Below are positions 2,731-28,370 of a stretch of DNA of 64,000 nucleotides, in pieces. The position numbers and the translations under genes are program-made. This stretch comes from Vicinamibacteria bacterium (GTDB taxonomy: Bacteria; Acidobacteriota; Vicinamibacteria; Fen-336): NCBI GenBank assembly GCA_035570235.1, contig DATMML010000073.1, positions 1-64,000 of the forward strand, written 5' to 3'. The notes below the pieces were generated by a model. It did not search any database, was not told the DNA's origin, and worked only from the letters and a program-made list of their open reading frames with translations. The first letter of the stretch is position 1. Each line of letters begins with the position of its first letter.

Positions 2731-2751
2731 CCCCGGGCGCTGCACCCGGGG
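2731..2751. repeat. Perfect 7-bp inverted repeat (possible attenuator or operator)
   Basis: CCCCGGG at 2731-2737 and CCCGGGG at 2745-2751 flank a 7-base loop. It lies just downstream of the minus-strand TATAAT (2765-2760), so it would form a hairpin at the start of the operon leader. No T-run follows on either strand. Confidence 0.4.
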
Positions 2752-2901
2752 TTAACTACATTATATAACCTCTGGGCGGCGTGCGGGGTCTTTCTTGCCG
2801 GTTACGCGCGCCGGAGGGCCTCTGTACCCAAACACCTCCTCCTTCTCCTTCCTCGAAACGGCCGGCGGGGTAAAAAACGGGCCCGCAACCGGCTGAGCCC
2901 T

Positions 2902-2923
2902 AGAGTTCCGTTAACGAAACTCT
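2902..2923. promoter_or_regulatory. 22-bp palindromic operator in front of the RHH gene
   Basis: Half-sites AGAGTT and AACTCT flank a central GTTAAC (2910-2915); only one symmetric base pair is mismatched. It sits directly upstream of the TACACT box at 2926-2931 and 15 bases before the ATG, so a bound protein would block transcription. Ribbon-helix-helix proteins usually bind such short palindromes and repress themselves, hence autoregulation is inferred. Confidence 0.6.
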
Positions 2924-2925
2924 GT

Positions 2926-2931
2926 TACACT
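2926..2931 (+). promoter_or_regulatory. TACACT -10 box, probable leaderless start
   Basis: TACACT ends 7 bases before the ATG at 2939 and no Shine-Dalgarno lies between. A start site 7 bases downstream of the box would coincide with the start codon. The same layout occurs before several other genes in the window. Confidence 0.5.
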
Positions 2932-2938
2932 CGCCCGC

Positions 2939-3310
2939 ATGGGGACGGGCAGGCCGCGGCGGGACGAGACGCCGACGCTGGTCCTCGGGGTCAGGCTCAA
3001 CCGGCGGGAGCGCGAGGTCCTAGAGCGACTCAGGGCCGCCCGGCGAGGCACCCGCTCGCACCTGGTCAGGGAGGCGATCGCGCGGGGCGTCGCGGCGATC
3101 TTGGAGGACGAGAGCCACCCCGGGGCCGTGCGGGTCCCACTCACCGCGCGCCAGGTGGAGAGCCTGAGGCGGTTCGCCCGGGGCCGTCCCCTGGCTGACG
3201 TGGCCAGGCGCGCGGTCCAGCAGGGCCTCGTTGAGATGAGGGCCACGGAACGCAGGACCCGGGGCGCGTTCCGGGGGAAGAAGAAGCGCCGGAGATTGCC
3301 GGGGGCATGA
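2939..3310 (+). CDS. Tandem ribbon-helix-helix DNA-binding protein
   Basis: A 123-residue protein. Residues 15-55 (LVLGVRLNRREREVLERLR to LVREAIARGVAAIL) have the strand-helix-helix pattern of CopG/Arc-type RHH domains. Residues 64-100 (AVRVPLTARQVESLRRFA to VARRAVQQGLVEM) repeat that pattern, so one chain may form a pseudo-dimer. The C-terminal tail is strongly basic (GKKKRRR). Transcribed away from the element operon and preceded by a palindrome, it is probably an autoregulated repressor of the element. The ATG lacks a Shine-Dalgarno. Confidence 0.72.
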   Translation: MGTGRPRRDETPTLVLGVRLNRREREVLERLRAARRGTRSHLVREAIARGVAAILEDESHPGAVRVPLTARQVESLRRFARGRPLADVARRAVQQGLVEMRATERRTRGAFRGKKKRRRLPGA

Positions 3311-3353
3311 GTGGGTCGTCTGGGCTCCGTGTCCAACGATTCGCGGCCGTAGC

Positions 3354-4379
3354 CTACCGGTACGCGCGCGCGAGCGCCTCCTGGACCAGGGCCACGTCGA
3401 CGATGGCGTAGCGGCGGAACGTCTGCGCCGACTTCCAACCGCAGACGGCCATCACGACGTGCTGGGGAACGCCGAGCCGGACCATCCTCCGCGCGGACGA
3501 CCGCCGGAGGTCGTGGACCGTCTTCCCCGGCTGCCCCGCGGCCCGGCACGCGCGCGCCCAGGCCCGGTGGCCGATCCGGGCGGGGGTCCCGTCCTCCCGG
3601 GAGAAGACCCAGGGTGAGACCACGCCCCTCGCCCTCAGGTCGTCCCTGGTTCCCTGCCGCCGCCGGATCAGGGCGACCAGGCCGGGGATCGGGCCGTAAG
3701 GCACGACTCGGGCGGTGCCCGTCTTACTCGTCTCGATCCTGACCGTCTGCGCGGCCGGGTCAACCCCGTCCCAGGTCAGGCCCTCCGCCTCGCTCCGGCG
3801 CCAACCCGACCACCAGAGGAACTCCACCAGGTCCGCCGCGTCCTCCGGCAACCGGGAGCGCACGGCCTCGAACTGCTCCTCGTCGAAGAACACCCGCCGC
3901 GCGTTGTCCAAGCGGAGCGACTCGAAGTCGGGGACCACCGGGAGGAGGCCCCGGCGCCGGGCGAGGCGCAGCGCGCGACGGAGCCACGCCAACTCCAGGT
4001 TGACGGTCCCCCTGGCCGCTCCTTCCCCGAGCCGAGCGGCGGCGTACCGGGAGACCGTGTCGGCGGTGACGTCCCGGACCCTGGTCTTCGCGCCGAGGCC
4101 TCGCTCTAGGGAGGTGAACCGGGGGCCGACCTTGGAGGACGCGCGGCCGTTTGCTGTGTGGTCCTCCTCGACCAGGCGCCGGAGGTCGGACACCAGGAGG
4201 GGCGCCCCGGAGAGGGCCCCCTGGCCCGACGCGCGGACCCGTTCGAGGAGCAGGTCCCCGGCGTGCTTCTTGACGGAGGTGCGGGCGGACTCCCGGACGG
4301 TCCGCCCCCCGGCCCGGTACGCCATCCACCAAGTTCGGCCCCTCTGGTAGAGACCGCCCGTCCCACGAGGTCGCCTCAC
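3354..4379 (-). CDS. Tyrosine recombinase / integrase
   Basis: 341 residues, normal for phage-type integrases. The N-terminal 60 residues resemble an arm-binding domain (GGLYQRGRTWWMAYRAGGR), followed by a SAM-like core-binding domain to about residue 160. Catalytic residues are visible: R194 (GWRRSE), K219 (SKTG), H289 and R292 (HDLRR), W315 (GWKS, in place of the more common His) and Y324 (RRY). It mediates integration and excision with host attachment sites. The GTG start has GGGAGGTG about 6 bases upstream. It is transcribed away from the chromosomal junction and into the element, as is common when attachment site and integrase gene are neighbours. Confidence 0.92.
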   Translation of the reverse strand: MRRPRGTGGLYQRGRTWWMAYRAGGRTVRESARTSVKKHAGDLLLERVRASGQGALSGAPLLVSDLRRLVEEDHTANGRASSKVGPRFTSLERGLGAKTRVRDVTADTVSRYAAARLGEGAARGTVNLELAWLRRALRLARRRGLLPVVPDFESLRLDNARRVFFDEEQFEAVRSRLPEDAADLVEFLWWSGWRRSEAEGLTWDGVDPAAQTVRIETSKTGTARVVPYGPIPGLVALIRRRQGTRDDLRARGVVSPWVFSREDGTPARIGHRAWARACRAAGQPGKTVHDLRRSSARRMVRLGVPQHVVMAVCGWKSAQTFRRYAIVDVALVQEALARAYR

Positions 4380-11276: not shown

Positions 11277-13364
11277 CTGACCACCATCGGCAAGTTTGAG
11301 ATCCTGGCCGAACTGGGCCAGGGTGCCATGGGCAAGGTTTACCGCGCCCGTGATCCCGTGCTCGACCGTTTCGTGGCCCTAAAGACGGTGGCCCCGGGGC
11401 TGCTCGCCAACCAGGACACCCTCGCCCGCTTCCAGCGTGAGGCCCGGGCCGCGGCCAAGCTCCAGCACCCGAACGTGGTCACCATCTTCGAGCTGGGAGA
11501 GACGGGCTCCACGGTGTACATCGCGATGGAACTGCTGGAGGGCATGGACTTGTCCCAGGTCATGGTCCCCCCGGACCGCTTCTCCCTGGAGCAGAAGATC
11601 CGCATGATGGTGGACGTCTGTCGCGGACTGGACTATGCCCACAAGCAAGGGGTCATCCATCGCGACGTGAAGCCGGCCAACATCCGGGTGGGGGGGGACG
11701 GCACGGTGAAGATCCTGGACTTCGGGATCGCCCGCCTGGTGGACTCCACCATGACCCAGACCGGCCTCGTCCTCGGCACCCCGAGCTACATCGCGCCCGA
11801 GGTGCTCCAGGGCGGCCGGGTGGACCACCGCACGGACATGTGGGCGGTGGGCGTGATCCTCTACGAGATGCTCGCGGGCCGACGGCCATACGAGTCGAAG
11901 ACGATCACGGGCCTCGTCTACCAGATAGTCCACGCTCCCCTCCCCCCCATAGACGCCAAGGGCTTGCCCGAGGCCCTCCTGGGCGCGGTGACGAAGGCGC
12001 TGGCGCGGGACCCGGGGGCAAGGTTCCGGGACATGGCCGAGATGGGTCGCGCACTCCAGTCCGCGATAGGGCTCTCGGGTCCGGTCGAGCCCGACCTCGA
12101 CCCCGCGGTCCGGCAGCGTGCCTACGAAGTGAACTACGAGGATGCCCGACGGCGGTTGGCGGAGAACGACCTGACGGGGGCGCTGGCGGCGGCGCGGCGC
12201 GCCCAGTCGCTCGATCCCACCCGCACCGCGATCGTGGCCCTGATCGAGGCCATCGAGGGCCTCCTCCTCTCCGGGGAGACGATGTCTCACGCCCCACCCG
12301 ACCGCGACGCCGCGGCTACGCGCCTCTCGGACGGGACCCTCCTGGCGGGAGCGGCGCCCCTCGCCCCGGCCTACCCCGCCGAGCCCCTCGCCGAGAAGCC
12401 GCCGCCCACCGCCGCCCTCTCCGAGCTGCGGCTGCGGGGGGCCGCGGTCTTCCGTGAGCTCGCCACATTCGGCGAGCCACCGGCCACCCAAGCCGTGGCC
12501 CTCTCCCCGGTCAAGGACGTGCTCGCGATCTCGGGCTCGGACGGGGCGATTCGCCTATGGGACCTTTATTCGCGCACGAAGGCGCTCACGCTGCGCACCG
12601 AGATGCACCGTCGCAACGGCCATGACGCCCTCGCCCTCTCCTTGGCCTGGTCTCCCGACGGCGCCCTTCTGGCCTCGGGCCATGTGGACGGGGGCGTCCA
12701 CGTTTGGGATATGGAACGGGGTGAGGAGGTCCCGGTGAAGCTGCGCCATGACGCGCTGGTGGGGGCCCTGGCCTTTTCCCCTGATGGCTCCACCTTGGCC
12801 ACGGGCTGCATGGATTCGAGCCTGCGCCTTTGGGACGTGGGCGCCGCCCTCGCCGGTGAGGCCCGGCGCGAGTTGCTGCGCCAGCCCGCGGGCGTGACCG
12901 CCCTCGCCTACGCGGGGGGTGGCGAGTGGCTGGTGACCGGCCACGTCAACCGCATCCTGCGGATGCTGGATGCGACCACGGGCCGGCTCCTGGCCACCCT
13001 GCGCGGGCCCGAAGCCCTGGTGAGCCTGCTCTGCCTATCCCCCGACGGCCACCACCTGGCGGTGGCCAGCCACGACCGCTCGATCCGGCTCTTCGACCTC
13101 GCGACCCGGGAACAGGTGGCGGTCGTGGCCGGCCACCGCAAGCCGGCCACCTCCCTCTCCTTCTTCGCGGACGGGACTCACCTCGCCACCGTGGCCCAGG
13201 ACAACAGCGTCCAACTCTGGGACCTGGAGGCCCACGCCCCTCTGGCCGCGCTCTGGGGGCCGGCGGAGGAGAGCTTCACGGGTGTGACTCTCTTCGGAGG
13301 CGGTCACCACATCGCGGTAGCCCTCGGCGACGGCCGCATCCGCGTTTGGGGCCCCACGGCCTGA
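11277..13364 (+). CDS. Ser/Thr protein kinase with C-terminal WD40 propeller
   Basis: About 695 residues. The kinase domain (residues 5-270) has the glycine loop GQGAMGKVY, K36 in ALKTV, HRDVKPANI with D131, DFG at 149-151 and APE. A TPR-like linker follows, then seven WD40 repeats from about residue 400 to the end, each closing with WD-like pairs (IRLWDL, VHVWDM, LRLWDV, IRLFDL, VQLWDL), enough for one propeller. There is no membrane segment, so it is cytosolic. No ATG, GTG or TTG precedes the glycine loop in frame; CTG at 11277, 7 bases after GGAGG, is the best start. An ATG at 11270 is out of frame and hits a stop after nine codons. Confidence 0.88.
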   Translation: MTTIGKFEILAELGQGAMGKVYRARDPVLDRFVALKTVAPGLLANQDTLARFQREARAAAKLQHPNVVTIFELGETGSTVYIAMELLEGMDLSQVMVPPDRFSLEQKIRMMVDVCRGLDYAHKQGVIHRDVKPANIRVGGDGTVKILDFGIARLVDSTMTQTGLVLGTPSYIAPEVLQGGRVDHRTDMWAVGVILYEMLAGRRPYESKTITGLVYQIVHAPLPPIDAKGLPEALLGAVTKALARDPGARFRDMAEMGRALQSAIGLSGPVEPDLDPAVRQRAYEVNYEDARRRLAENDLTGALAAARRAQSLDPTRTAIVALIEAIEGLLLSGETMSHAPPDRDAAATRLSDGTLLAGAAPLAPAYPAEPLAEKPPPTAALSELRLRGAAVFRELATFGEPPATQAVALSPVKDVLAISGSDGAIRLWDLYSRTKALTLRTEMHRRNGHDALALSLAWSPDGALLASGHVDGGVHVWDMERGEEVPVKLRHDALVGALAFSPDGSTLATGCMDSSLRLWDVGAALAGEARRELLRQPAGVTALAYAGGGEWLVTGHVNRILRMLDATTGRLLATLRGPEALVSLLCLSPDGHHLAVASHDRSIRLFDLATREQVAVVAGHRKPATSLSFFADGTHLATVAQDNSVQLWDLEAHAPLAALWGPAEESFTGVTLFGGGHHIAVALGDGRIRVWGPTA

Positions 13365-14431: not shown

Positions 14432-14516
14432 GGCTCCCGCCGAGGGTCACCACCACCCGAAGCCGCCGCTCTTCCGCCGCGGGGAACGGCTCCTTGCGCA
14501 CCTCCCTCCCCCCGCA

Positions 14517-14522
14517 TACCAT
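14517..14522 (+). promoter_or_regulatory. TACCAT -10-like box for the DHS-like gene
   Basis: TACCAT ends 7 bases before the ATG at 14530, again without a Shine-Dalgarno. It matches the TANNNT leaderless layout seen at other genes in the window. Confidence 0.4.
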
Positions 14523-14529
14523 CGCCTCC

Positions 14530-15597
14530 ATGACGCAGTCACGCCAGTTCCACGACGGTCGTGCGGACGGCCTCATCCCCTTGGAGAGCTTGGACCTTGA
14601 TCAGGTCACGTCGTTCGCGTCCCTGCTGCGCGGCATGTCCAGGACCGCCTTCAGCGGCCGCGCGCTGGGCGAAGCTTTGGACGTGACCCTGGCCATGGTC
14701 CGAGACCCCGAGTGCAAAGTGGTGCTGACCCTCTCCGGGGCCATGACCATCGCCAAGATGGGCAAAGTCATCGCCAAGATGATCGACACGGGGATGGTAC
14801 AGGCGGTGGTCTCCACCGGCGCCCTCATGGCCCACGGCCTTTCCGAGGCCGTGGGCATGGTCCACTACCGTCACGACCCCCGCCTGAGCGACGAAGAGTT
14901 GTTCGACAAGGGCTACAACCGGGTCTACGACACCCTGGAGATGGAGGCCAATCTCAACTACGTGGAGGAGTTTTCGTCCCGGGCCCTGGAGGGCGTGCCC
15001 CCGGAACGGGAGCTGTCGAGCGAGGTCGTGTGCCGCGCTCTGGGGCGCGTCCTGGCCGCGGAGCCGGAGGGCACGGGCGTCTTGCGCAGCGCTTACTTGA
15101 AGCAGGTGCCGGTGTACGTTCCCGCTTTCACCGACTCGGAGCTCGGCCTCGACCTCTCCACCTGGGCCATGAAGCAAGCCCAGGCCCGCGGGGTAAAGGA
15201 CCCCCTGGCTCTGCTCTCCCACACCCCGCGCTACAACCCCTACCTGGACCTCAATAGCTTTGCCCGCTTCGCGTTGGACGCGAAGCGGCTTGGTATTTTC
15301 ACCATCGGGGGCGGGGTGCCCCGCAACTGGGCCCAGGAAGTGGGCCCCTACATCGACATCACCAACCACCGGTTGGGCCTCGATCTGAAGCCGCCCCGCT
15401 ATCAGTATGGAGTGCGCATCTGCCCGGAGCCCGCGCACTGGGGCGGGCTCTCCGGTTGCACGTATTCGGAGGGCGTGTCCTGGGGGAAGTTCGTGCCCTT
15501 GTCGGAGGGGGGACGCTTCGCCGAGGTCTACGCGGACGCCACCACCGTCTGGCCGTTGCTGATCAAAGGCGTGCTCGAGGAGCTGGACGCGCGCTGA
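14530..15597 (+). CDS. Deoxyhypusine synthase-like protein (possible homospermidine synthase)
   Basis: 355 residues. The fold signatures of deoxyhypusine synthase are present: KVVLTLSGAMTIAKMGKVI (NAD-binding), VSTGALMAHGLSEA, YDTLEMEANLNYVEEF, IGGGVPRNWAQEVGPYI and the active-site lysine K320 in EGVSWGKF. In eukaryotes the enzyme transfers a butylamine from spermidine to eIF5A. Bacteria lack that target, and several bacterial homologues make homospermidine from putrescine or spermidine. That activity is the likeliest here, but unproven. The start is chosen at ATG 14530 because it follows the TACCAT box. A strong hairpin (15629-15654) ends the transcript. Confidence 0.88.
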   Translation: MTQSRQFHDGRADGLIPLESLDLDQVTSFASLLRGMSRTAFSGRALGEALDVTLAMVRDPECKVVLTLSGAMTIAKMGKVIAKMIDTGMVQAVVSTGALMAHGLSEAVGMVHYRHDPRLSDEELFDKGYNRVYDTLEMEANLNYVEEFSSRALEGVPPERELSSEVVCRALGRVLAAEPEGTGVLRSAYLKQVPVYVPAFTDSELGLDLSTWAMKQAQARGVKDPLALLSHTPRYNPYLDLNSFARFALDAKRLGIFTIGGGVPRNWAQEVGPYIDITNHRLGLDLKPPRYQYGVRICPEPAHWGGLSGCTYSEGVSWGKFVPLSEGGRFAEVYADATTVWPLLIKGVLEELDAR

Positions 15598-20107: not shown

Positions 20108-20192
20108 GCCGGAGTGGTGGAATTGGCAGACACGCACGTTTGAGGGGCGTGTGGGGAAACCCGTGCGGGTTCGAGTCCCGCCTCCGGCACCA
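20108..20192 (+). tRNA. tRNA-Leu (anticodon GAG)
   Basis: 85 bases including an encoded CCA. Acceptor arms GCCGGAG (20108-20114) and CTCCGGC (20182-20188) pair fully, with discriminator A and CCA at 20190-20192. The D-loop region GGAATTGGCAGACAC, the T-arm CGGGTTCGAGTCCCG and a long class II variable arm identify a leucine tRNA. The anticodon loop is TTGAGGG with anticodon GAG at 20142-20144, reading CUC and CUU codons. It ends 5 bases before the stop codon of the convergent membrane protein gene. Confidence 0.95.
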
Positions 20193-20197
20193 CTGCT

Positions 20198-22840
20198 TCA
20201 GGCCTCGGCCAGCGCGCTGAACGCCAGCAGGACAAGGGGCAGGGCTACGGCCTCGGCGGAGACGCCCCGCGACAGGAAGAGGCCGAGCCCTACGGCCAGG
20301 CCCGCGAGGGCCAGCGGCGACGGCTCTCCCCGGGACGCCAGCAGCAGGGCCCCCATCGCCAGCACCGCCGCCAGCGGGGCCAGGGCAAAGACGGCGAGGG
20401 CGAGGGTACCGTCGGGCGCGCCCCAGTAAAGGAAGAGGTTGGCCAGGCCCAGGCCCGGGCCCACTCCCCCTTCCGCCCACATCGCGGCCGCAAACGCCCC
20501 CGCGTCGGGCAGGACCGTAGGCAGGACCAGGACCAGATAGCCCGCCACGACCCCTCCGAGGGCGCGCGGCCAGAGAACCCGGCCCCCGCGGGCCAGCGGC
20601 GCGAGCAGGAAGGGCACCCCCAGCCAGGCTCGGTGGTCGAGGGCGCCGGCCGCACCCGCCACGGCTCCGGCCAGGAAAGCCCGGCCACCAGTCGCCAGGG
20701 CCAGACTCCCGAGAAGCGCCACCAGGGGCAGGGCGGCGGGCGATCCGAACACCGTGCCGAGGGCGAGAGGAGGGGCCAGACCGGCCAGGGCCAGAGCGAG
20801 CGGGCGCTCCGCGGGTCTGCCCAGGCCGGCCGCGAGCGCCATGAGAAGGCCGAGAGCCAATAGCGTGATGATGCGCGGGTCGCGGGTCCCGGCGACGAGG
20901 GCGGCCAGCGTGGTGGAGCCGGGGGGGAGAACGGGGTCCTCGGGGACGAGGGCACCGGGCGGATCCATTCGGAAGCTGGTCGTCCAGGCCTCGCGGCCGG
21001 CCCCCGACCCCGCAGGGGGTGCGTCCGCGAACGGGCTCCGGCCGTGGGTGAGGCGCTGAGCGTCGGACGCTACTCGGACCACCCAGTCGTCCTGGGCGCG
21101 CGGCGTGCCCGTCCACCGGCCAACCGAGATGACGACCAGGGTCGGTACCACGACCACCGACACCACGGCCAGAACCACCAGCCCCGCCCGCAGGCGGGCG
21201 GAGGCTCCGAGGGCAAAGAGCAGGAGGTAAACCAGGGCCAGGCCGGCGGCGGTCGCGCTCAGCAAGAGCCCCAAAGGATCGGCGGTGAGATGGATACCCG
21301 CGCGGGGGGCGAGGATCGCACAGAGACCCTTGAGCCTCAGGGGAAGGCCTCCGGCCACCGCGTCCTCCCAAGTCGTGCGAAAGACCGCGTGCTCCGCCAT
21401 CTCGACGGCAAGGGCCAAGAGGAGGAGGGGAACGGCCGCCACGTCCGCCTCCCGGCGAAGGACGAGGAACGCCAGGGGCAATAACACCGCCACCGGAATC
21501 AGGTAGTTCGGATGCACGACCCGGGAGAAATAGAGCGAGGCCAGGAGTGCCCCGCTGCCCGTGATGAGGGCGGTGGCGGCTCCGCCCCTGCGCAGCTGCA
21601 CGTGCAGCAGGAGGAGGCCCCAGGGGACGAGCAAGAGGTAGAACAGGCTGAACGGAAAGTAGTCGCGCAGGCTGGCCACGCGGCCGAAATAGATGAGGAA
21701 GTTGGCGAAGCCGAACCCCGGCGTCCCCCCGAGCGGATAGTTGTCACCTCCGGGCAGGCCGACGTTGTAGACGAAGATGTCACGGTAGAAGGCCCGGAGG
21801 TCGAGCGCGGCCACGGGCGCCACCACGGCCACGAAGACGAGGGTGGCGACGGCGGCCGGACGTGCCATCCGAAGGAGCGCGGAGCGGCTCCCCAGACCAC
21901 GCCAGTCTCGGGCCCCGGAGAGGTGGACGAGCAAGAACGGGGCGAAGGGCCAGGCCAGCTGCTTGGTCGCGCAGGCGAAGCCCAGGGCGAGGGCGCAAAG
22001 AAGCGGTCGATCCGCGCGCGCGAGGCGGACGGCGCCCAGGATCAGAGCTACGAAAATGATGTCGTTGGCCCCGAAGATTTGGTGCCAGTACGCGAGGGGG
22101 TTCAGGGCGACGAGGGCAGCGGCGGCGAGCCGCGCCGACGCTCCCTCCGCGTAGCCCACCGCCAGCCACACCGCCAGCCCGTAGGCGAGCAGGGTCACGA
22201 GGCGGGGGTCGAAGAACCCGAAGAGCGCCCGGCCGGCCAGATAGAAAGGCATCATCACGAGGTGCGTGCCGGGCAGATACGCGTGATGGTGCAGGATGGG
22301 ATTCCCCCCGAAGGCCTCCCAGAAGCGGGAGACCCTCGCCTCCTTGCCCAAGATCGAGTCCGAGTAGTCCGCGCCGTAGGGACTCTGGCCGGCCAGGATC
22401 TTGTCGAGGGCGAGGGGAATCTGGACCACGCCCCCGTCCTGGCCGTAGGGTCGGTCCATCCACCGGCCCATGGCCACGAAGGCGAGGCTCGGACCCACGA
22501 CCAGAGCCGCGCTGGCCGCGGCGATCACTGCCGCCCGCAGCCGCGGTCGCGCTCCGAAGGTGGCCAGGGCGAGGTACACGAGGGCGAGACCGGTGGCCAC
22601 CGCGCCCAGGACCAGGGCTATGGGGTCGCGGTCGAGACCGGACCCCGGGCGGGGAAGCCAGGGGGCGATCCACTCCGGCAACGCCGCCAGATGCGGGTCG
22701 TGGAGCAGCCGCCAGGCCAGAACGCGTGGGGGATCGTGCAGGAGCAGATCCCGCGCGATCAGGAGGAGAAGCGCGGGGACGATGGCGGCATCAAGGCTCG
22801 GGAGGCGGGGCTTCGCCGGGGCCTGGGCCTCTGCTTCCAG
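20198..22840 (-). CDS. Polytopic membrane protein with internal duplication (GT-C glycosyltransferase-like)
   Basis: About 880 residues and some 20 hydrophobic segments. Two halves repeat the same layout. Half one opens with [19 protein letters not shown] and [17 protein letters not shown]; half two with [19 protein letters not shown] and [17 protein letters not shown]. Each ends with a matching block ([12 protein letters not shown] and [12 protein letters not shown]). Topology resembles GT-C polyprenyl-phosphate sugar transferases, but no DxD catalytic motif is certain. The start is uncertain: the frame upstream of TTG 22681 encodes another membrane segment ([17 protein letters not shown]) and contains no ATG, GTG or TTG before an in-frame stop. 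CTG 22840, two bases after the upstream gene's stop, is proposed. Confidence 0.72.
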
Positions 22841-22841
22841 C

Positions 22842-23012
22842 CTACTTCCCGCTCACGGGGGTGACCGTGACCCGCGCCCCGCATGAACAGACAAGGCTTC
22901 TCACCGCCCACTCGATCTTCAGCAAGCGGCCACAGGCGGAGCAGGCGATGTATGTCCCCGCCCCGTAAGTGCCGCGGGGTGTGCGGCGGGACGGAGGCGC
23001 GGACTCTCTCAT
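22842..23012 (-). CDS. Zinc-ribbon microprotein
   Basis: 56 residues, from an ATG with AAGGGGGT upstream. Two cysteine pairs (YIACSACGRLL and LVCSCGARV) form a small zinc ribbon preceded by a basic tail (PPSRRTPRGTYG). The stop TAG is followed after one base by the proposed CTG start of the membrane protein, so the two are probably coupled. I know no specific function. It is short enough to be missed by default gene-calling limits. Confidence 0.6.
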   Translation of the reverse strand: MRESAPPSRRTPRGTYGAGTYIACSACGRLLKIEWAVRSLVCSCGARVTVTPVSGK

Positions 23013-23146: not shown

Positions 23147-24367
23147 TCAGAGCGCACGCAGACGCCCACTTCGGAAATAGATCGAGAGCACGAGGGCGAC
23201 GAGCACGGCGCAGAACGCACCAAGGACGACGGGGGCGCCCAAGGGCCTGACCAGGGCCCCCGCGGCCAAGCTGCCGAGCGGCATCCCGCCCCGAAAAGCG
23301 AGCCCGTAGATGCTCAGCACGCGCCCGCGGAAGACATCGGGGGCGTTCTCTTGGACGAGGGAGTTGAGGGTAGAGAAAGCCGTGACGAGGCTGGCCCCCG
23401 AGATCAGGAGCAGGATCATGGCCGGTAGCTGTTGGTGGGAGAACAAGGCGCCGATGGTGGCCAAGCCGTAGACCACGAAAGCGAGAAGCAGAGCCCGACC
23501 GCGGCCCTCCACCTTTCCGCGCTGCGCGGTGGCGATCGCGCCCGCGATGGCCCCCACGCCAAAGCTGGCGAGGAGCAAGCTGTAGCCGGCGACTCCCGTG
23601 CCGAGAACGTTGCCCGCCACCACGGGCAGGTAGGTGATCAAGGGGAATGAGAGGAAGCTGCCCGCCGCTCCCAGGAGGGCCAGCACGGACAGGAGGGGGC
23701 TGTCGAGGACGTGGCGGATGCCCGCCTTCAGGCTCTCGGCCAGGCTCTCCTTGGGAACGGACGCAGGGGCGGGCAGCTCGATACGCAGGAGGGCCACGAT
23801 CACGGCTAGGAAGGAGAGCGCGTTGGCGGCGAAGCAGGCCCCGGTGCCCGCCCGGGCCAGAAGCAAGCCCGCGATCACCGGCCCAATCGCCCGCGACAAG
23901 TTGAACTGGAGAGAGTTCAGGGCCACCGCGTTGGGGATCTTCTCCGCCGGCACCAGGCTCGTGAGCACCGCCTGGTAGGTGGGGGCCGACTGCGACTGGG
24001 CGAGGCCGGTGAGAAACGCGATGAGGAGGATGGCGCCGATTCCGAGGGCGCCCGTCCAGTAGAGCAGGCCCAGGACCAACGCCATCGCCATCTGGAACGT
24101 CTGGGAGGCGAGGAGGATCCGTCGGCGGTCCACCCGGTCCGCCACCGCGCCCCCCAAGAGCATGAAGGTGAGGAGCGGCAGGTCGGAGGCGAAGGCCCGC
24201 AGGCCCAGGTAGAAGGGGTCGCCCAGGCGCGTGAAGATCAGCCAGGACAGGGCAACGTCTTGGGTCCAGGTCCCGATGCTGGACAGGAACGCCCCCGTCC
24301 ACAGAAGCCGGAAACTTCGGAAGGCGAACGCGGAGAGGAAGCCGGGAAGCTTCCCCGCCGAACTCAC
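23147..24367 (-). CDS. MFS transporter (EntS-like, MFS_3)
   Basis: 406 residues with 12 predicted membrane helices. Residues 12-40 (FRSFRLLWTGAFLSSIGTWTQDVALSWL) and the loop GGAVADRVDRRRILLASQ carry the MFS motif A of the MFS_3/EntS group, which exports siderophores or drugs. The substrate is unknown and no siderophore cluster is near. It starts at a GTG overlapping the surE stop (GTGA), so it is translated with SurE. A hairpin follows its stop. Confidence 0.88.
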   Translation of the reverse strand: MSSAGKLPGFLSAFAFRSFRLLWTGAFLSSIGTWTQDVALSWLIFTRLGDPFYLGLRAFASDLPLLTFMLLGGAVADRVDRRRILLASQTFQMAMALVLGLLYWTGALGIGAILLIAFLTGLAQSQSAPTYQAVLTSLVPAEKIPNAVALNSLQFNLSRAIGPVIAGLLLARAGTGACFAANALSFLAVIVALLRIELPAPASVPKESLAESLKAGIRHVLDSPLLSVLALLGAAGSFLSFPLITYLPVVAGNVLGTGVAGYSLLLASFGVGAIAGAIATAQRGKVEGRGRALLLAFVVYGLATIGALFSHQQLPAMILLLISGASLVTAFSTLNSLVQENAPDVFRGRVLSIYGLAFRGGMPLGSLAAGALVRPLGAPVVLGAFCAVLVALVLSIYFRSGRLRAL

Positions 24368-25504: not shown

Positions 25505-25620
25505 CCCTGTTTCCGGCCGGGCTTCTTGGCCGCGGCCGCGATGGTCGCCTTCTTCTTCGCTTTCCTGGCCTTCTCCCGGCGCTTCCTTCGGCGACGGATC
25601 TCCCTCATTCTTTCGATCAT
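25501..25620 (-). CDS. Highly basic microprotein
   Basis: 39 residues, over half Lys, Arg and Ala (MREIRRRRKRREKARK, then AKKPGRKQG). The ATG overlaps the stop of the MshEN-domain gene (ATGA), which argues for real translation. It could bind nucleic acid or an acidic surface, but no family is recognised. The stop overlaps that of the convergent zinc-ribbon gene. Confidence 0.5.
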   Translation of the reverse strand: MIERMREIRRRRKRREKARKAKKKATIAAAAKKPGRKQG

Positions 25621-26630
25621 TCGATCTCCTTGCTCTCGGCGCCGGGCTCGCCCCCGGAGGCCTTCTGGGTCTCCGCAATCCGTTTGCGGATGATGCGTAG
25701 GTAAGCGCGGGGGACCTTCTGGATGAAGACCATCAGCTCCCCCAGCTCCGCTTTCACGTTTCCGGCCGCGCCCTGGTCTCCGTAGATCAGGTTGACCACC
25801 CGCCCTTTGACCACCACCGGAAAGAGGGCGATGTTGGTGCCCGGGCGCTTGGCCAAGGTCTTCAGGAAGCTCTGGTTCTCCTCCTCCAAGCCAAGCCGCC
25901 CGATGAAAACCGTCTTCGCCCCCGTCACGGTACGGAACACGGAGGGTTTCTCGAGCGGGATGCGCAGGCTGGTGGCCAGGCTCCGGTCCATCCCCTCTCC
26001 CGTTCCATTCCAGCCCAAGACCCAAGGCTCCCGCACGATGAAGAAGATCACGCGTCGGAAGAAACGCGCGCACAAAGCAATGAGGGCCTCCACGACTTCG
26101 TCGCGGGTGGTGGCGGCATCGATCTGGGCGGCCGCGGTGGCCAGGTCCGGGAGCTCCCGGGCGGGGGGCGACGGCGGGTGGTGGGTGTCGGTGTAGCGCC
26201 AGCGCTCGTCCACGCCGTAGTGGTCGCGTAGGAGCTGAATCATCCGGAACTCAGGAACGACCAGGGGCTTGACGATGTAGCCCAGGGAGTAGCCTACTTG
26301 GGCCACCGCGGTGTGATCGCTGGGGTCGACCATGAGCAGGAAGAGCGTCTTGCCCCGAATCCGGTAGGGGAAGACCTTGTGACGTGCGGCCAAGGCCTTG
26401 GGCACCAGGGCCACCGCCTCCTCCTCTCGGTCCGCGAGACCCACGCCGGGGGCGGGCACTCCGTGGGCCCGGGAGAGGCCCTCCTGCAGACGTTGCTCGG
26501 TTATGAAGCCCAACTCGTGAAGGTTGGTGCCCAGGCGACCCCCGTAGAGAACCTGGTGTTGGACGGCCTCTTGCAGCTGTCGTTCCGTCACGATCCCGCG
26601 GTCACGCAGGATCCGGGCAAGGATGGACAG
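25617..26630 (-). CDS. MshEN/GspE-N domain protein without ATPase domain
   Basis: About 337 residues. The N-terminal 110 residues match the GspE N-terminal (MshEN) domain: ILARILRDRGIVTERQLQEA, then YGGRLGTNLHELGFITEQRLQEGL. RLGxxL-x-x-G repeats of this kind bind c-di-GMP in MshE. The rest is not the GspE ATPase (no Walker box) and looks like a GAF-like regulatory domain (VVEALIALCARFFRRVIFFIV, IALFPVVVKGRVVNLIYGD). An effector that senses c-di-GMP is a reasonable inference, given the EAL protein encoded divergently. No ATG, GTG or TTG fits the family start; CTG 26630 has GGAGG 5 bases upstream. TAGAAT lies at 26653-26658. Confidence 0.7.
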   Translation of the reverse strand: MSILARILRDRGIVTERQLQEAVQHQVLYGGRLGTNLHELGFITEQRLQEGLSRAHGVPAPGVGLADREEEAVALVPKALAARHKVFPYRIRGKTLFLLMVDPSDHTAVAQVGYSLGYIVKPLVVPEFRMIQLLRDHYGVDERWRYTDTHHPPSPPARELPDLATAAAQIDAATTRDEVVEALIALCARFFRRVIFFIVREPWVLGWNGTGEGMDRSLATSLRIPLEKPSVFRTVTGAKTVFIGRLGLEEENQSFLKTLAKRPGTNIALFPVVVKGRVVNLIYGDQGAAGNVKAELGELMVFIQKVPRAYLRIIRKRIAETQKASGGEPGAESKEIE

Positions 26631-26734
26631 GTAACCCTCCGCAGAACTCGTTATTCTAGACCGGTTTCTTTGCCGCTTCGCTCGCGGTGGGCTATGATCC
26701 GAGTCGTCTTCTCCCGCGCCGAACACCCTGGATC

Positions 26735-27136
26735 ATGAAGAAGAAAATCCTGATCGTGGACGACGAGGACGATATCCGCCATTTTCTGGAGCTCGTGCTG
26801 CGACAAAGCGGCTACGAAGTGTATGCGGCGGGGGGGGGCGAGGAGTGCCTGGCCCGGGCCGGCCAGTTGCGCCCGGACCTGATCCTGCTCGACATCATGA
26901 TGCCCGTCATAGATGGCTGGGAGGTGCTGCGCCAGCTCAAGGGGCGGGCCGACACCGCTCCCCTCCCCGTGGCCATCCTCTCCGCGCGCACCGAAGCCAA
27001 GGACCGGGCGCGCGGGATGGGGGCGGGGGCGGTGGACTACATCGGCAAGCCCTTTGCCCTCCACGAGCTCTTGAAGAGGATCGAGACCATCTTCAAGTCG
27101 GTGGGCGACGGGGCCAAGGTCGGCGGAGATGCCTAG
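26735..27136 (+). CDS. Single-domain response regulator (CheY-like)
   Basis: 133 residues forming one receiver domain: acidic pair in ILIVDDEDDIRHF, phosphoacceptor D53 in LILLDIMMP, Ser/Thr in VAILSARTEAK and Lys in DYIGKPFALHEL. No output domain follows. Its last 8 bases overlap the EAL gene, so it probably controls that protein. There is no histidine kinase in the window. A TATGAT box lies at 26693-26698; the ATG has no clear SD. Confidence 0.92.
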   Translation: MKKKILIVDDEDDIRHFLELVLRQSGYEVYAAGGGEECLARAGQLRPDLILLDIMMPVIDGWEVLRQLKGRADTAPLPVAILSARTEAKDRARGMGAGAVDYIGKPFALHELLKRIETIFKSVGDGAKVGGDA

Positions 27137-28370
27137 GTCGATCGTGGAGCCCTTCCCCCCCTACCAGGACCGCCTCCCGGAGCTGCAGAAAGAGCTCACG
27201 GAGCGGGGCAGCCTGGGCTTGCTGGTCCTAGACGCCTCTGCCCTCGCCGCCATCGAGGACCAGTACGGCACCGAGGCCTACGAGGAGGTGCGTCAGCGGG
27301 TCTTCAAGATCCTCGAAGAGCAACGGGGCAAGGACTATCGGGACGGCGATATTCTGACCACCGACCGGCCTAGGGGGCTGCGCTTCCTGTTCTTTCTGGA
27401 GCGCAAGCGACGCCGGGACGTGCCTTTTTCCATCTCCGACCTGAAGGCCGCCCGCGGCCGGTTGCTCGCCTCCCTCCTTCCCAACCTGTCCCGGGCCTCC
27501 TTTCCGTACTTCAAGACCCCCCCCCGCCTGGAGGTCGGCTGCGGAATCGCCGTCCACAACCCCCTGCTGCACCCGGACCGCGTCGTGCGGCGTGCTCTCC
27601 GGGAGGCGCTCGACCTCGCCGCCCACGAGCGGAAGAGCAGCAGCCTCCAGGTGCTGGAGCGCCTGCACGACATCATCCTGCGCGAACGGGTGGTGACGGC
27701 CTACCAGCCGATCCTCAGGATCAAGGAGGGCACCGTGCTGGGCTTCGAGGCCCTCTCCCGCGGGCCCCGGGGGACGGGCCTCGAGACCGCGGACGCCCTC
27801 TTCGCGGCCGCCACCTCCCATTGCCTGCTGGTGGAGCTGGACCGCCTTTGCCGGCGGTGCGCCCTCCTCGCCTCGGGCCGGATACCCTCCAGCGCTAAGA
27901 TCTTTATCAACACCCTCCCCGCCACCATGCGCGACCCGCAGTTCCGGGGAAAGCCCCTGATCGACTTCCTGGACAAGGCCCAGGTCGCACCGAACCGGAT
28001 CGTCATCGAGATCACGGAGAAGCTGGTCATCGAGAACTACGCCCTGTTCCGCGAGACCATGGCTTACTTCACGGATCTCGGCATGTCGTTTGCGGTCGAC
28101 GACGTGGGGGCGGGGTACTCCGGCCTGGAGTCCATCGCCAAGCTCAAGCCGACCTATCTCAAGATCGACACCGCGCTCGTGCGGGAGGTGCACGTGAGCG
28201 TGGTCAACCGCGCGATGTGCAAGGCCATCATCTCCTTAGGCAACAGCGTCGGGGCCACCGTCATTGCAGAGGGCATCCAATCTGAGGAAGAAACACAGGC
28301 CCTGAAGGCCATGGGGGTGGACTACGGGCAGGGATACTACCTGGCCCGACCGGACCCCGGCAACGAATGA
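27129..28370 (+). CDS. EAL-domain c-di-GMP phosphodiesterase with degenerate GGDEF-like N-terminus
   Basis: 413 residues. Residues 1-185 resemble a diguanylate cyclase fold that has lost the GGDEF signature. The EAL domain (about 190-410) keeps the catalytic residues: EAL in LGFEALSRGP, N in FINTLP, E in VIEITEK, the DD pair in FAVDDVGAGYSGL, K in LKPTYLKID, E in VIAEGIQSEEE and Q in GQGYYLARP. It should hydrolyse c-di-GMP to pGpG. It is translationally coupled with the upstream receiver protein and faces the MshEN protein, giving a compact c-di-GMP locus. Confidence 0.9.
   Translation: MPRSIVEPFPPYQDRLPELQKELTERGSLGLLVLDASALAAIEDQYGTEAYEEVRQRVFKILEEQRGKDYRDGDILTTDRPRGLRFLFFLERKRRRDVPFSISDLKAARGRLLASLLPNLSRASFPYFKTPPRLEVGCGIAVHNPLLHPDRVVRRALREALDLAAHERKSSSLQVLERLHDIILRERVVTAYQPILRIKEGTVLGFEALSRGPRGTGLETADALFAAATSHCLLVELDRLCRRCALLASGRIPSSAKIFINTLPATMRDPQFRGKPLIDFLDKAQVAPNRIVIEITEKLVIENYALFRETMAYFTDLGMSFAVDDVGAGYSGLESIAKLKPTYLKIDTALVREVHVSVVNRAMCKAIISLGNSVGATVIAEGIQSEEETQALKAMGVDYGQGYYLARPDPGNE

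Follow-up and report, generated by a model that had tools for sequence, protein, structure and literature searches.

A tandem GT-C-fold membrane protein of a Vicinamibacteria family with a candidate catalytic module and a degenerate copy of it

The stretch of DNA analysed here (64,000 nucleotides from a Vicinamibacteria bacterium, below called the window) carries on its minus strand a gene for a long membrane protein in which the two halves resemble each other. The question raised by this locus is whether one half is a copy of the other and, if so, whether both could still act as glycosyltransferases. The earlier note on this DNA had proposed a fusion of two GT-C-like modules, giving either one catalytic and one non-catalytic domain or an internal dimer. 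The whole gene, its two modules and the linkers used to compare them are listed below, with residues numbered so that K1 lies at window position 22813.

20198–22840, minus strand: whole gene, tandem GT-C-fold membrane protein (predicted); open frame, orthologues without internal stops
21449–22813, minus strand: N-terminal module, residues 1–455, GT87-like, with catalytic-type residues kept (Pfam GT87, N-half alignment A1, model)
20201–21448, minus strand: C-terminal module, residues 456–871, degenerate copy of the N module (hhalign, reciprocal profile matches, own model)
22625–22738, minus strand: N-module linker between the first two long helices, residues 26–63, with R30, W34 and D63 common to the C module
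21278–21391, minus strand: equivalent C-module linker, residues 475–512, with R479, W482 and D512 invariant; missing from the single-module relative

Internal duplication and predicted fold

The sequence blocks that the earlier note had seen in both halves are all found in one minus-strand frame, in the same order and at similar spacing, within two copies of a module of 415–455 aa. The opening blocks keep a constant offset of 449 residues (GLALVYL at 75/524, GRW at 116/565, QD at 125/574 and G-x-SP at 142/591), and the two closing blocks follow at 369/790 (offset 421) and 430/848 (offset 418). Chance was excluded by BLASTP, by shuffling and by hhalign. When the window protein was aligned to itself as had been suggested, its N half matched its C half by BLASTP with an E-value of 1e-15 (35% over 247 aa). 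The local alignment score between the halves was 362 against a shuffle maximum of 161, which places it 14 to 32 SD above the shuffles (300 at each of four block sizes, some of them preserving local composition). Alignments of the N halves (A1, 11 sequences) and of the C halves (A2, 10 sequences) were matched by hhalign over 403 columns at 99.9% and E 9e-32, and controls with reversed or shuffled columns reached a probability of at most 18%. Searched over whole genomes, the N-half profile matched its own C half end to end (6–452 of 455, E 7e-26) and also the C half of the orthologue in genome G006 (E 2.5e-23), and the C-half profile matched complete N halves over nearly the full length of the profile (E 5e-39 to 2e-25). 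The halves are homologous end to end, with matching secondary structure and with the second half closest to the first, and they are the product of a tandem internal duplication. The duplication had been recognized correctly; the point at which the unit had been taken to start had not, as the repeat begins before the opening block with an extra N-terminal helix and linker, and the boundary between the modules lies at about residue 455/456 (window position about 21449).

AlphaFold2 models, which rest on 10 sequences, reached a mean pLDDT of 83 and a pTM of 0.90 for the full protein and a pTM of 0.76 for the C half alone. The correspondence of helices between the halves was taken from secondary-structure lists of the full model and is as follows (N-half residues/C-half residues).

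Pairs 1–5: 7–25/457–474, 29–38/479–487, 64–85/513–534, 90–119/539–568, 127–140/577–589
Pairs 6–10: 203–221/647–664, 225–236/667–678, 239–246/681–688, 251–266/694–708, 270–283/712–725
Pairs 11–14: 310–335/747–779, 388–409/803–826, 412–428/833–847, 435–452/853–870

The earlier note had allowed that the halves might prove to differ in fold, and this was not borne out by the prediction, in which the helices correspond except for one (N-half helix 339–351) that has no C-half counterpart. Among PDB structures, Foldseek placed GPI mannosyltransferase I, ALG3, PIG-U, PimE, ArnT and ALG6 closest to the full model, at weak E-values (best 1.5e-3). For the C-module model, also at weak E-values (best 0.035), the closest were EmbB, ALG3, ALG9, AftA, ALG6, ArnT, PIG-U and PimE. 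All high-probability matches were of GT-C fold, and matches to other folds were of low probability. Profiles of the N and C modules gave chance matches only when searched against the sequences of solved structures, and the fold assignment therefore stands on structure comparison and Pfam. The protein is accordingly placed by its models in the GT-C fold superfamily, with a predicted membrane-helix core, both the full and the C-module model matching GT-C structures best at the weak E-values given above. Short loops after the second long helix, GARPRLR in one half and GASARLR in the other, suggest that both halves have the same orientation in the membrane. Sequence, profile and structure evidence agree on two fused GT-C-like modules.

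Catalytic-type residues and selection in the two modules

The motifs on which the comparison of the two modules depends are the following.

22421–22450, minus strand: N-module loop with D126, candidate GT-C catalytic Asp; in all N modules covering it and in the single-module relative
22262–22309, minus strand: N-module HHxYLPGxH motif (H176, H177, Y179, H184); invariant in N modules, essentially missing in C modules
21932–21964, minus strand: N-module K284 motif; invariant in N modules and also found in the single-module relative, whereas C modules have D/E/A/S or a gap
21701–21730, minus strand: N-module GGTPG motif; the C module retains only PG-x-G-(L/V)-x-N
21503–21526, minus strand: N-module SRVVHPNY motif (R431, N436, Y437); invariant in N modules, also found in the single-module relative, lost from C modules
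21077–21094, minus strand: C-module QDDWVV, putative remnant of the catalytic-Asp loop; Asp in five of nine C modules
20957–20995, minus strand: C-module-specific loop motif REAxxxSFRxDPP; E608, S613, F614, P618 and P619 invariant among C modules

The N module of the window protein matched Pfam GT87 (PF09594) at 30–32.6 bits, the curated cut-off being 25, and 10 of the 11 N modules were matched by this profile. The window's own C module gave no match to GT87, which was weakly reached by five of ten C halves (best E 0.001). D126, H176, Y179, N250, K284, R431, N436 and Y437 do not vary among N modules and also occur in the single-module relative (L059, described below). The equivalents of H176, Y179, N250, K284, N436 and Y437 have been lost in all nine C modules compared, that of R431 in eight and that of D126 in four. 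The fold-type residues R30, W34, D63, D202 and R204 are kept in 9/9 C modules, and only 24% of the invariant polar N positions are retained there. The acidic residue that serves GT-C enzymes as catalytic base in their first extracytoplasmic loop has a counterpart, D126, in every N module covering the position, and an Asp is present there in 5/9 C modules, having been lost from C modules in at least two lineages (genome G007 and the genus of G005, G011 and G013). The catalytic base of PimE is D58, which lies in its first periplasmic segment, and its activity requires K195 (PMC12041525); by analogy, D126 and K284 may correspond to this catalytic Asp and this required Lys.

Both halves are under purifying selection and the C module evolves faster, with dN/dS (YN00) of 0.14–0.16 for C modules versus 0.04–0.07 for N modules and a mean column identity of 67% in A1 versus 52% in A2. 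Among C modules 38 columns are still invariant, and of the nine C halves that were unmasked and read to their end, eight keep about 395 aa or more. The orthologue in genome G010 (L005, positions 2737–3711, plus strand) has a C module short by about 90 aa, including core-helix equivalents, in a frame that is still open. Judged by its lost catalytic-type residues, its retained fold and the selection acting on it, the C module appears to be a pseudoenzyme, in which the Asp has been lost only partly. Of the two arrangements first envisaged, that of one catalytic and one non-catalytic domain is favoured, because most of the invariant polar residues of the N half are replaced in the C half.

Start codon, neighbourhood and distribution

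Two genes upstream of the tandem gene enter the discussion of its start and context.

22842–23012, minus strand: zinc-ribbon-like ORF of 56 aa, CxxC...CxC; kept in six syntenic loci, its stop adjoining or overlapping the start of the GT-C gene
23147–24367, minus strand: MFS_3 transporter gene, constant upstream neighbour, context only (Pfam MFS_3 E 4e-76, synteny)

The open frame has 884 codons and would give a product of 880 aa if started at CTG 22840. Before the conserved N-terminus there is no ATG, GTG or TTG, and this CTG, one base past the stop of the zinc-ribbon-like ORF, is the sole in-frame NTG. The first conventional start, TTG 22681, was rejected because the conserved N-terminal helix would be cut off. 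At the orthologous loci L015, L017 and L024 the CTG overlaps the stop of the small ORF as CTGA, and at L016 and L022 it stands immediately behind that stop. At L020, L021 and L025, where no small ORF was seen, the gene starts with GTG, read in the context GTGA, and at L019 it starts with ATG. From this pattern of starts and stops, translation probably begins at CTG 22840, and a conserved non-AUG start reached by translational coupling is possible for the window and the five relatives with CTG (L015, L016, L017, L022 and L024). An assembly error or frameshift was ruled out by the stop-free open frames in several independent genomes.

The small ORF, in which Pfam found nothing over its cut-off, has the motif CxxCGxLLxIxWxxRSxVCxCGA and is conserved between the MFS_3 and GT-C genes at L015, L016, L017, L018, L022 and L024; it is probably coupled translationally to the GT-C gene. 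The conserved gene order is MshEN gene, MFS_3 gene, tandem GT-C gene and tRNA-Leu gene, the last of these (20108–20192, opposite strand) lying 5 bases from the end of the GT-C gene. Genes for an EAL protein and for carotenoid-type oxidoreductases are found farther out in several genomes. The neighbouring genes (MFS_3, SurE, MshEN, EAL, GNAT and carotenoid-type oxidoreductase) form no glycan operon and give no glycan hint. The MshEN protein, of c-di-GMP-binding type (25617–26726, minus strand), and the EAL phosphodiesterase (27129–28370, plus strand) are encoded divergently, a pair kept at L015 and L017. Elsewhere in the window are a gene for a deoxyhypusine synthase-family protein in a bacterium (14494–15597, plus strand; Pfam DS E 3e-71; 81–84% identical at L016 and L021) and one in which WD40 repeats are fused to a protein kinase domain (11328–13364, plus strand).

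Within one family of soil-type Acidobacteriota (Vicinamibacteria), 11 of 14 genomes carry the tandem gene, with some copies split or cut by contig ends, the sample being 10–11 sequences from metagenome-assembled genomes. Profile searches of the other families of the class gave no match at comparable score. The conserved gene order makes vertical inheritance probable. The search for single-module relatives proposed at the outset did find one, L059, a protein of 440 aa from genome G217 in another Acidobacteriota family (E 5e-52). It is like the N module in its motifs and unlike the tandem protein in having one module and no linker of about 35 aa after its first helix; this linker, with R30, W34 and D63, is common to both modules of the tandem protein. 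Relatives of the genome carrying L059 were examined and held no further single-module protein, no N-module relative was found on viral contigs, and no relative of the single-module protein was found on plasmids. Weak matches from the class and phylum (L037–L043, L060 and L061) were other GT-C/PMT-type proteins or chance and were left out. In a tree with long branches, which deserves moderate trust, all C modules fall into one clade (100/100), and a further split (87/94) sets the N and C modules together apart from the single-module rows. One ancient duplication in the stem of this Vicinamibacteria family is the simplest history.

Possible roles of the degenerate module

We consider it probable that the protein combines an active polyprenyl-phosphate-sugar transferase with a pseudo-GT-C module, the fusion having arisen through a single ancient internal duplication. 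The ancestor would have been a single-module GT87-like GT-C enzyme that used a polyprenyl-phosphate sugar donor at the periplasmic face, and its module would have been duplicated in tandem within one gene in the stem of the family. Transfer would be carried out by the N module, with D126 of the first periplasmic loop as the base activating the acceptor hydroxyl; the donor phosphate and sugar would be bound by K284 together with residues of the HHxYLPGxH, GGTPG and SRxxHxNY motifs. The C module would have lost sugar transfer; as a covalently joined pseudo-GT-C partner it would stabilise the N module, or perhaps help to hold the acceptor through its REAxxxSFRxDPP loop. Several points count against this explanation: the C modules are not uniformly dead by the Asp criterion, the residue being present in 5/9; the deletion of about 90 aa in the G010 orthologue would be expected of a relic no less than of a partner; the gene has no glycan genes around it; and the Foldseek E-values are weak, for models built on 10 sequences.

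The Asp retained in those five C modules, the purifying selection and the C module's own conserved loop motif would also agree with a bifunctional protein, in which both modules are active on two sugars or in two steps and the active site of the C module has changed. We think this quite unlikely, as C modules are without the His, Tyr, Asn, Lys and Arg common to N modules and the single-module relative, the Asp has gone in the lineages named above, and core-helix equivalents are lost in G010. If the C module were instead a decaying relic, kept only through its fusion and without a function of its own, its faster evolution and lower column identity, its longer branches and the G010 deletion would all be expected; the length preserved in 8/9 C halves, a dN/dS well below 1 and the 38 invariant columns, which include the C-specific loop motif, make this an unlikely account.

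A GT-C fold that binds or handles lipid-linked sugars in the manner of PIG-U, without being a glycosyltransferase, would suit the presence of PIG-U among the best structural matches and the absence of a glycan operon around the gene. This too is improbable, since the catalytic-type residues do not vary among N modules and recur in a relative from another family, and the GT87 profile scores above its curated cut-off. That two separate GT-C genes became fused, with no internal duplication, is hardly credible, even though the same genome has separate GT-C-like genes: the C module matches the N module best (hhalign score 233, versus 30 and 18 for single-module relatives), the linker residues R30, W34 and D63 recur in both modules and are missing from the single-module relative, and no free-standing C module turned up in the search of the class beyond a single weak, partial match in genome G001.

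GT-C enzymes are often dimers, and they have at least one inactive relative, PIG-U. In the EmbA-EmbB/EmbB2 and PMT dimers two GT-C modules stand side by side, and Emb structures are among our matches; those dimers consist of separate chains with soluble extra domains, whereas the tandem protein is one chain with one module degenerate. PMTs are described as obligate dimers (PMC12705809). PIG-U is a member of the GT-C clan and not an enzyme (PMC7801869); it has the fold without catalysis and is among the best matches of both models, but it is a separate subunit of a eukaryotic complex, the GPI transamidase, and has no active copy of its own module in the same chain. PimE-type GT-C proteins (GT87) share with the N module the fold class and the Asp in the first periplasmic loop, in addition to the profile match. 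PimE has one GT-C module; the tandem protein adds a second, degenerate module behind it, and each of its modules has two extra N-terminal helices before the helix leading to the Asp loop.

A limited literature search found no paper describing tandem GT-C proteins. Tentatively, the putative transferase with its degenerate copy may represent a new class of single-chain GT-C pseudo-dimers confined to one Acidobacteriota family, in which an active module has its active site controlled or completed by its own degenerate copy, and a REAxxxSFRxDPP loop holding the acceptor would be an example of such control. With its natural pairing of an intact GT-C module and a degenerate one in a single chain, and with a single-module relative in the same phylum, this family is a clean case, and it opens the question of how a membrane glycosyltransferase module becomes a partner without catalysis and what role it then takes on.
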